Below are positions 3,787 to 10,144 of a stretch of 64,000 nt of DNA, one piece after another. A model generated the notes under the pieces. The model saw only the letters and a program-made list of their open reading frames with translations. It did not search any database and was not told where the DNA came from. Source of the stretch: Bacteroidota bacterium. Lineage in GTDB: Bacteria > Bacteroidota > Bacteroidia > Flavobacteriales_E > Vicingaceae. The DNA lies in the NCBI GenBank assembly GCA_013112545.1, contig JABFGJ010000002.1:310001-374000 (forward strand), given 5' to 3'. The translations under genes were made by a program, and so were the position numbers. How positions within the stretch are numbered: the first letter of the stretch is position 1; each line of letters opens with the position of its first letter.

Positions 3787-4089
3787 TTATACTTCTTTAT
3801 CTAATTTATTCGGATGTTGCCGACTGTCAAAAATTGTGATAATATTTATTCGTTTAGAATTAAAGCGATAATATAGACTAGTCTGTTTTGTAATTACACA
3901 TTTTCTTAAACCTTTTCCTTTTTTTGACTCGGGGAAGATTTCAGGTTGATTTTTAATTATTTCTATTGATGATTCTAGTTTTACTACAAAATCTTTTTTT
4001 ACACCAATAGACCAATTTTGGATTAGATAATCAAAAAGATTATCTAATTTCTTTTCAGCTGTTTTTGAAATAACAACAATTCTATTCAA
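3787..4089 (-). CDS. RelE/ParE family toxin
   Basis: A 100-residue protein with the layout of the ParE/RelE plasmid-stabilisation fold: helical N-terminus (KTAEKKLDNLFDYLIQNW), then IIKNQPEIFPES, KGLRKCVI and the strand pair TSLYYRF and NIITIFDSRQHPNK at the C-terminus. RelE members cut mRNA on the ribosome and ParE members poison gyrase; the sequence does not decide between them. Translation appears to start at TTG directly after the antitoxin TAG stop, which suggests coupled translation. The pair lies inside an inserted segment bounded by 81-bp direct repeats. Confidence 0.87.
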   Translation of the reverse strand: MNRIVVISKTAEKKLDNLFDYLIQNWSIGVKKDFVVKLESSIEIIKNQPEIFPESKKGKGLRKCVITKQTSLYYRFNSKRINIITIFDSRQHPNKLDKEV

Positions 4090-8160: not shown

Positions 8161-8493
8161 AGGGATTGTAAAGTTTAGTGTTTATTATGATGAATAAACG
8201 TAGGATTTTTTTTAAAGAACTAAAAATTCAAAAAAAGTATTCAAATTCAAATTTTGCTTTTCAAAACTTTAATACGCTTAGGCTGTTTTAATACCGAAAT
8301 GAACAAATATTCAGTCTAATTTTGGCTGAATCTTCATTGAACAGTTAATTGTATTCAACAGCATATACCACTGTATGAATACAAATTTTAGACTATTTTT
8401 TTATTCACATTGGTATAATTTGCGAATCAGTACATCAATTATATAAAATTGAATCTAATTTCGCCTTGCTTTCTAAATTGATTGCCCATTAAT
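8161..8493. other. AT-rich divergent intergenic region
   Basis: About 330 bases between the divergent M42 peptidase and the uncharacterised two-gene unit. It presumably holds both promoters, but no box matches TAnnTTTG perfectly on the + strand near the start. No gene, RNA or clear hairpin was found. Confidence 0.5.
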
Positions 8494-9093
8494 ATGACAT
8501 TTTTTAATAAACTTTTTCAAGAAATACTTGGCTGCAACAAGAAATCCAATTTTGAGGATAAAGGATTATTATTAAAAGAAAATATAAAACACAGCCAAAT
8601 CTTTTTAAATAACTATAATGAATGGTTAGGAAAAGAAATGCACCATGATATATTGCAATATTTTTATCAATTGTGGGCGCAAAAGTTGAAACATAAAGCA
8701 GCAGAGGTGAACTTGTATTTACATGAGTCTAACCTTTCAAATGGTTTCTATTTTAGAGCGGAAACACGTTGGAATTCTGAGGATTATTGTTTTTTTATTC
8801 ATTATATAACAGAGAAATTACAAGCTAGAAACTATACCTTAAATCATGCAACAAGAGAGGTAATAGAAGAGGGAGGCTTACTGAAAACAATTGAACTATT
8901 TTATCTAAAACCAAGTTTAGAATTTCGCAAAACAGCTCCATTTGAACAGTTTTTTGGAAATATAGAAATTCAACATCGTATGGTAAATGGTGAAACTACC
9001 ATTGTAAAGTTAGTAGCAAATACCTATTCTGACCGTCGATATAAGAAAGCTTATGATTTTGAAGATTTAATGAATTTTATTTTCGTACTTTGA
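8494..9093 (+). CDS. Uncharacterised protein paired with a kinase-like gene
   Basis: Not recognised. ATG at 8494 is preferred over an in-frame TTG at 8482, giving about 199 residues. It has no signal peptide or membrane segment, so it is probably cytosolic. It is rich in aromatic residues and His (for example EMHHDILQYFYQLWAQKL, FYFRAETRWNSEDYCFFIHYI) and ends with a predicted alternating strand/helix region (IEIQHRMVNGETTIVKLVANTY). The next gene begins 4 bases after its stop, so the two products are likely made together and may act together, perhaps as regulator or substrate of the kinase-like protein. That partnership is inferred from layout only. Confidence 0.6.
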   Translation: MTFFNKLFQEILGCNKKSNFEDKGLLLKENIKHSQIFLNNYNEWLGKEMHHDILQYFYQLWAQKLKHKAAEVNLYLHESNLSNGFYFRAETRWNSEDYCFFIHYITEKLQARNYTLNHATREVIEEGGLLKTIELFYLKPSLEFRKTAPFEQFFGNIEIQHRMVNGETTIVKLVANTYSDRRYKKAYDFEDLMNFIFVL

Positions 9094-9097
9094 GTAT

Positions 9098-10144
9098 ATG
9101 AATGATATTTCGAAAAAGAAGAATTATTACAAGATTGGGACTGAACTTAGAAAATACCTCAAGCGCTATTCTCGTGAATTTGATTTACCTATAAGCTATA
9201 GCGATTTAAATCATTATGAAAATTCAGTTTCCTTGTACGACAAAGCTGGGAAAGATACTTTATGGGAAACGGTCTTTTATACCCAAACGGAGATGGAGGA
9301 GATTAACAATAGCTTATGTTATGTATATGCCTTGTTGAAAACAGAAGGAGACATGACCGTTATGGAACACCTTTATGTAAACCGTATTGACTATTGCCCT
9401 TTTGGAAATTCAAAACCATTTAGAATAAGAATTACTAATAAGTTTAACGACAACTATGATTATTTCTACGTAAAAACAGCCGATGCTTCGCGCATATATG
9501 GCTTGGAATTAGAACATATTTTATCGCCCAATCGAATCTCTTACATTGTGGATGGCTCTACGATTATAGAAGAGCATATAGCAGGAATTCCTGGAGATGT
9601 TTTTATTAAAGATTGGTTAGATACGGACATTACCTTGAATAGAACACGTTTAGCAAAGGAATTTGTAAAATTTAATGAGCGCTGTTTTGTACGGCTTTTA
9701 GGCGATATGCGTTCCTATAACTATGTGATTGATGTAACACCCGATTTCGATGATGTGCAGTATCGAATCAAAGCCATTGACTTTGACCAACAAACCTATG
9801 AAGGACGAAAAACCATGTATTTACCTCAATATTTTAAAGACAACAATCCCATTGTGGAGTTTTGCTCTAACTTTTTAAACACTGAAACCATACGACAATA
9901 TCAAAAAGAAGAGCGCACGATGATTGCCAACCGAGTTAAAGTTTCTAGGTATAGACTGAAAGATTTAGGAGACTGCATGGAAAACGACACGATAAGTACT
10001 CCCGAAAAAATAGACCAATTAAAACACGAACTCGCGGAGCATTTTGATGAACCTGCTTTTTTAGATTGCAAAAATATGGGGGAAATTTTAAAAACCAGGC
10101 TGTATATTTTAATCTATGCCAACAAACAGGTTTTTACGGCTTAG
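9098..10144 (+). CDS. Putative divergent protein-kinase-like/APH-fold phosphotransferase
   Basis: A 348-residue protein with no named family that I recognise. Its central region shows the elements of the protein-kinase-like fold in the right order and spacing: a candidate ATP-binding Lys126 (YFYVK), a following helix Glu (137 or 139), a hinge-like IIEEHIAGIPGD (about 156-167), a Brenner-type catalytic loop LGDMRSYN (Asp203, Asn208) matching HGDxxxxN of aminoglycoside phosphotransferases, and a metal-binding DFD (Asp228). It may phosphorylate a protein or small molecule. The first His of HGD is Leu here. It shares an operon with the preceding uncharacterised gene. The fold is inferred by eye, not by search. 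Confidence 0.6.
   Translation: MNDISKKKNYYKIGTELRKYLKRYSREFDLPISYSDLNHYENSVSLYDKAGKDTLWETVFYTQTEMEEINNSLCYVYALLKTEGDMTVMEHLYVNRIDYCPFGNSKPFRIRITNKFNDNYDYFYVKTADASRIYGLELEHILSPNRISYIVDGSTIIEEHIAGIPGDVFIKDWLDTDITLNRTRLAKEFVKFNERCFVRLLGDMRSYNYVIDVTPDFDDVQYRIKAIDFDQQTYEGRKTMYLPQYFKDNNPIVEFCSNFLNTETIRQYQKEERTMIANRVKVSRYRLKDLGDCMENDTISTPEKIDQLKHELAEHFDEPAFLDCKNMGEILKTRLYILIYANKQVFTA

Follow-up and report, generated by a model that had tools for sequence, protein, structure and literature searches.

Two closely spaced genes, P1 and P2, in a 64,000-nucleotide stretch of a Bacteroidota genome (hereafter the window, meaning the whole of the DNA analysed) raise the question of what kind of enzyme P2 encodes and whether P1 forms a unit with it. 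An earlier note had proposed an undescribed two-gene phosphotransfer system in which P2 would be a divergent kinase-fold enzyme. Both open reading frames lie where that note had placed them, with P1 4 bases upstream of P2 (Table 1). The P1 frame opens with an ATG at 8494 and its stop codon ends at 9093; a TTG at 8482 offers an alternative start, and the aligned P1 homologues begin at the ATG, not the TTG. The surrounding genes, between roughly 4 and 17 kb, run on the opposite strand, and two plus-strand open reading frames within that interval run antisense over opposite-strand genes. Elsewhere in the window, at 3787-4089 on the minus strand, is a frame of 100 residues with a TTG start whose product, judged by eye, looks like RelE/ParE-type toxins.

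Table 1. Positions of P1, P2 and the putative active-site segments of P2 in the window.
Feature	Positions	Strand	Description
P1	8494..9093	+	199 residues, function unassigned; lineage-specific neighbour of the kinase-fold gene P2
P2	9098..10144	+	348 residues; predicted protein-kinase-like-fold enzyme, PI3K/PIKK-like
P2 residues 126-140	9473..9517	+	K126 (putative ATP lysine), then helix with D129, R132, E137, E139
P2 residues 158-161 (EEHI)	9569..9580	+	presumed hinge between lobes
P2 residues 200-208 (LLGDMRSYN)	9695..9721	+	predicted catalytic loop (D203, N208)
P2 residues 228-231 (DFDQ)	9779..9790	+	putative metal-binding aspartate, DFG position

As had been supposed, P2 resembles no named family by sequence. 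Pfam, PHROGs and PADLOC gave no match, and the only NCBIfam row is meaningless (E 0.17, scoring 11 bits where the cut-off is 225). A search of the PDB with the P2 sequence found no convincing relative (best E 0.19), and a P2 profile matched a single PDB sequence, that of a protein with a C2H2 domain, over positions 4-84 (E 0.0074). In the literature, where coverage of subscription papers and preprints was thin, we found no description of the P2 family. According to the accessible part of its source, KINtaro catalogues 72 families with the protein-kinase-like (PKL) fold, of which 32 carry no PKL association in the established domain databases, and P2 could be among these families (PMC10870513).

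The AlphaFold2 model of P2, made from an input alignment of 60 rows, is a two-lobed kinase fold with a pLDDT of 90.8 and a pTM of 0.88. All 26 PDB chains that Foldseek matched to it at E ≤ 0.001 are kinases, headed by Vps34 (2x6h_A, E 4.4e-5) and followed mainly by protein kinases. These superpositions are loose, with TM-scores of 0.23-0.42 by query length and rmsd values of 9.6-20.8 Å over the 26 best chains. Foldseek matches among viral models are likewise mainly protein kinases, with some PI3K-like proteins. When Foldseek's top chains were realigned with VIA-align 2, 282 of the 982 aligned chains reached Z ≥ 8, and the top 50 rows all belong to the PI3K/PI4K/PIKK branch (rank 50, Z 11.6). 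The best match, 2x6j_A (Z 13.3, rmsd 4.7 Å), aligns over 274 of 348 residues, and CtTel1 (6sky_A; Z 13.0, 4.4 Å, 286 aligned) and PI4KB (8q6g; Z 12.8, 4.2 Å, 258 aligned) are close behind; no HipA, APH or kinase from outside the PI3K branch is among those best 50 rows of 982. The fold that the earlier note had anticipated is thus returned by a confident model and by both structural searches.

The putative active site is strongly conserved. An alignment of 147 distinct sequences, comprising P2 and 146 homologues 43-79% identical to it, has 40 invariant columns of 348. There is no variation at K126, D129, R132, E139, G202, D203, M204, N208, D228, F229, D230 and Q231, nor at E158 and H160, and position 137 is always acidic (E in 145, D in 2). 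The Lys/Glu pair, the LGDMRSYN and the DFD singled out beforehand are all present (K126 with E137/E139, L201-GDMRSY-N208 and D228-F-D230). Conservation of K126, D203, N208 and D228, proposed earlier as a check, is complete, an outcome with a probability of about 1.5e-4 for four pre-chosen residues by chance. In the model, K126 sits in strand 119-127, with helix 130-142 coming next, and residues 158-161 lie at the end of strand 155-159. On these strand and helix positions, K126 and E137/E139 are assigned as the counterparts of the ATP lysine (K72 of PKA) and the helix-C acid (E91). The equivalents of D166, N171 and D184 are D203, N208 and D228, kept in 147 of 147 sequences. The usual glycine-rich loop (G52) was not found, the hairpin preceding K126 (residues 115-118) reading KFND with no glycine. 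The first His of HGD, equivalent to H164 of the catalytic loop, is indeed replaced: position 201 is L in 146 sequences and I in one, giving LGD. Loss of this histidine is tolerated in known kinases, and all but one of ten key PKL residues have been lost in some family, as far as the accessible text of PMC1821047 goes.

A pseudokinase, or a kinase fold with other chemistry such as AMPylation as in SelO or service as a binding scaffold, would suit the off-consensus motifs of P2 (GDM, DFD). Typical pseudokinases do not keep such a lysine, aspartates and asparagine, whereas the lysine, both aspartates and the asparagine are kept throughout the P2 alignment. PKL proteins with other activities do exist, to judge from part of one survey (PMC10870513), and we nonetheless consider loss or exchange of kinase activity in P2 quite improbable.

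The kinase domain of the PI3K/PI4K/PIKK branch (Vps34, PI4KB, Tel1/ATM, SMG1; PF00454) has further traits in common with P2. The K-x2-D-x2-R that follows the ATP lysine in this branch is invariant at P2 residues 126-132, spaced as in the K-HG-D-DL-R of Vps34, and the catalytic loops have the spacing GD-x-[R/H]-x2-N in common. We take the motifs of PF00454 (PI3_PI4_kinase) to be DRHxxN and DFG, which are present in the Vps34 and PI4KB sequences; all 147 sequences of the P2 alignment instead have DM[R/H]xxN and DFD, so that the PF00454 motifs as such were not found. The members of the branch also carry large extra domains, whereas P2 is a single bacterial protein without them. The APH/choline kinase family (CAK) presents D-x4-N followed by a D-x-D, an order that P2 shares, but the first position of its HGD is L201 in P2, which has no APH (PF01636) match. 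The earlier note had ascribed the active-site set to the APH/protein-kinase-like fold and compared its loop with HGDxxxxN. The kinase-fold part of that reading stands, but the APH motif seems less apt than the GDRHxxN of PI3K, because position 205 is H in 43 of the 147 sequences (which read GDMHxxN; R in the other 104) and because the best structural rows are PI3K/PI4K/PIKK.

Sequence comparison gives no corresponding match. PF00454 does not match P2 at E ≤ 5, is absent among 25 of the 28 families listed for the 60-row alignment, and exceeds its cut-off in none of 41 genomes, the window's included. Profile comparisons with hhalign are not significant, either against Vps34 (probability 0.3%, P-value 0.17) or against Vps34 and PI4KB together (0.1%, P-value 0.5). 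The Vps34 alignment, at its probability of 0.3%, pairs GDMRSYN with GDRHLDN and AIDFD with HIDFG; the stretch after AIDFD falls on the Vps34 activation segment. Assignment of P2 to PI3K by sequence was rejected on these non-significant comparisons. Taking them together with the fold matches, we therefore regard the predicted kinase fold as well supported the PI3K-like character as one of structure and motif spacing only, and common descent with PI3K as no more than possible. Legionella OpiA/AnkK, MavQ and Lmor_1975 are divergent bacterial PKL kinases placed near PI3K, and P2 can be likened to them by description only, from the accessible part of PMC9758233. PI3K is listed, in the text available, among the eukaryote-specific families (PMC1821047). 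It is a speculative and unlikely proposal that the PI3K/PIKK branch has a bacterial lineage in P2, which much of Bacteroidota would retain as a minimal kinase of one domain for protein-based signalling and which would be either sister to the eukaryotic PI3K/PIKK kinases or near their ancestor.

Considered together, model and conservation argue for P2 as a soluble, active kinase whose lobes are PI3K/PIKK-like, a reading to which we give a probability of about 0.72; ATP binding, catalysis and solubility are properties that we infer.

The distribution of P2 bears on what such a kinase might act upon. A scan of GTDB species genomes found at least 573 stretches encoding a P2 relative; the best 80 of these were kept, and from their genome titles we take them to be from Bacteroidota. 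Carriers include Chitinophaga, Hymenobacter and Pontibacter. Across 395 genomes sampled from the phylum, P2 is found in 99 and was not found in 296; 97 of the 99 have one full-length match and one (G136) has two. One genome has, instead of a whole gene, two short P2-like stretches (G294:C1:3158142-3158407), each with an internal stop codon, perhaps a decayed copy to judge from the sequence. No match occurs in 72,556 plasmid records, and among viral contigs the scan gave 32 pattern matches with no P2 relative confirmed. The P2 tree largely follows genus: the nine Pontibacter rows fall into a single clade and those of Hymenobacter, Algoriphagus and Chitinophaga mostly cluster, with exceptions that include two metagenome-assembled genomes (MAGs) titled Chitinophaga pinensis.

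P2 is matched in 26 of the 46 genomes from the window's own order, by two types that are about 50% identical to each other (loci L014-L027 and L001-L013), and no genome has both. The window's type occurs in 13 genomes, the other 12 sequences being 73-79% identical to P2; the second type, also in 13 genomes, is 48-52% identical to it. Two second-type genomes (G019, G028) have two matches each, one of those in G019 covering just 46 residues. In a FastTree phylogeny the second type groups with six other sequences (support 0.89), and the window's type stands beside Pontibacter, Rufibacter, Hymenobacter and one Flavobacteriales MAG (support 0.64). Replacement or ancient duplication of P2 in this order is possible.

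The neighbours of P2 vary from clade to clade and indicate no common pathway or single substrate. A glycosyltransferase gene lies directly upstream of P2 in four of the nine loci examined in other classes of the phylum (L178, L181, L184 and L186, with gaps of 17, 8, 128 and 45 bases; L183 is without a gene list). We presume this glycosyltransferase to be BshA-like, of bacillithiol synthesis. A link of P2 to bacillithiol was considered on this account, but BshC occurs almost throughout the sample, in 384 of 395 genomes and in all 99 with P2, and so does not discriminate. At two other loci (L190, L191) P2 begins 6 and 3 bases after what we take to be a flavodoxin-like gene, with RseC-like and RnfB-like genes, so identified on the same presumption, close behind; this arrangement suggests an operon. 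An inositol-lipid kinase was considered and rejected: inositol-phosphate synthase (PF07994 at E ≤ 1e-10) occurs in 16 of 99 genomes with P2 and in 43 of 296 others, showing no association (Fisher p 0.74), and most P2 genomes are without it. An inositol-lipid role is disfavoured because the synthase is undetected in 83 of the 99, inositol import being a possible way round this.

These data also weigh on whether P2 might be a small-molecule kinase of some metabolic step, acting on a sugar, nucleoside, amine or cofactor precursor, rather than a protein kinase. Its mostly single copy and its grouping by genus would fit metabolism, as would the recurrent upstream glycosyltransferase, and many small-molecule kinases have the PKL fold, according to part of PMC1821047. 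Against this, the closest folds among the best 50 VIA-align 2 rows are lipid and protein kinases, no metabolic neighbour is constant, and three quarters of the sample (296 of 395) gave no P2; we regard a metabolic kinase as a rather unlikely alternative. For the kinase that we favour, our guess is that proteins are more likely substrates than small molecules.

P1 is of no known family, as had been claimed: Pfam, NCBIfam and PADLOC gave no match, and PHROGs gave a weak one to a family of unknown function (E 0.17). Its earlier description as aromatic- and His-rich is mildly supported, with P2 alone as the yardstick (F+Y+W 16.6% against 13.5%, His 4.0% against 1.7%). The P1 model, from two sequences, is poor (pLDDT 55.6) and has no Foldseek match at E ≤ 0.001. 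The two best PDB rows for it, DcrB (6e8a_B; Z 7.8, 3.6 Å, 95 aligned, model residues 61-177) and then SciW (Z 6.4), were judged too weak; both presumably belong to a Mog1/PsbP-like group.

Of the 46 genomes of the window's own order, 15 carry P1. It lies directly upstream of P2 in all 13 genomes with the window's P2 type, the window's included and with one (G034) split over contig ends. In the other two, P1 is away from P2, either on another contig in a genome with a second-type P2 (G029) or in a genome with no P2 (G039). Of the 12 own-order loci where an unbroken P1 lies upstream, eight have 4 bases between it and P2, one has 9 and three have 21. Eleven aligned P1 homologues share 30-46% identity with that of the window, against 73-79% between the adjoining P2 proteins and the window's P2, so that P1 changes much faster than P2.

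Elsewhere in the phylum the pairing does not hold. P1 occurs in 11 of 296 genomes, namely the window's own, eight others with P2 and two without it, one of these last being a weak match over 60 positions with stop codons. In all eight other genomes with both, P1 is unlinked to P2, on another contig in six and 498 kb and 1.2 Mb away in two. A P1 profile found no homologue among the open reading frames of other P2 loci within the flanks examined (best further match E 0.23). Nine P1 loci away from P2 were read, in one of which the rule for calling open reading frames had missed P1. Four (L156-L159) have P1, in conserved order, between what we take to be RecQ-like and Nudix-like genes; in two it is by presumed Obg-like and CvpA-like genes, and in two it is beside other genes. 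Because P1 is elsewhere absent or unlinked to P2, it is not a constant partner of P2, and their adjacency is an arrangement conserved within a single lineage. Co-occurrence of the two genes across Bacteroidota, which had been proposed as a check, is constant only for the window's P2 type, and we find no support for a two-gene phosphotransfer system as a general unit.

A toxin-antitoxin pair of the HipBA kind, in which P2 would be the kinase toxin, would fit a short gene lying 4 bases ahead of one that encodes a kinase fold. The two hallmarks of HipA toxin kinases, a HipA_C domain and an upstream HipB-type antitoxin, were not found here: HipA_C is absent for P2 and among 25 of the 28 families listed for its 60-row alignment, and no helix-turn-helix family appears for P1 or its 11 homologues (five of five families listed). 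With P1 homologues not beside P2 outside the window's lineage within the flanks examined, with no P2 in the plasmid records and none confirmed in viral contigs, and with a tree largely by genus, such a pair is very improbable indeed.

Our preferred reading, then, is that P2 would be a stand-alone cytosolic PKL-fold enzyme whose two lobes resemble those of the PI3K/PI4K/PIKK branch. MgATP would be held between the lobes by K126, a helix acid (E137 or E139), N208 and D228, and D203 would help to pass the gamma phosphate to the substrate. That substrate is likeliest to be a protein, which is a guess, and P2 may thus be a regulatory Ser/Thr-type kinase. In the window's lineage P1 is probably co-transcribed with P2 and may modulate it, P1 presumably not being required for P2 elsewhere.

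P2 thus represents an unannotated, strongly conserved family of predicted kinase fold in a quarter of the sampled phylum genomes (99 of 395). If active, it would add a family to the PKL superfamily, as a signalling or metabolic enzyme, and its predicted PI3K-like lobes would bear on the origin of the PI3K/PIKK branch, which has been described as eukaryote-specific.
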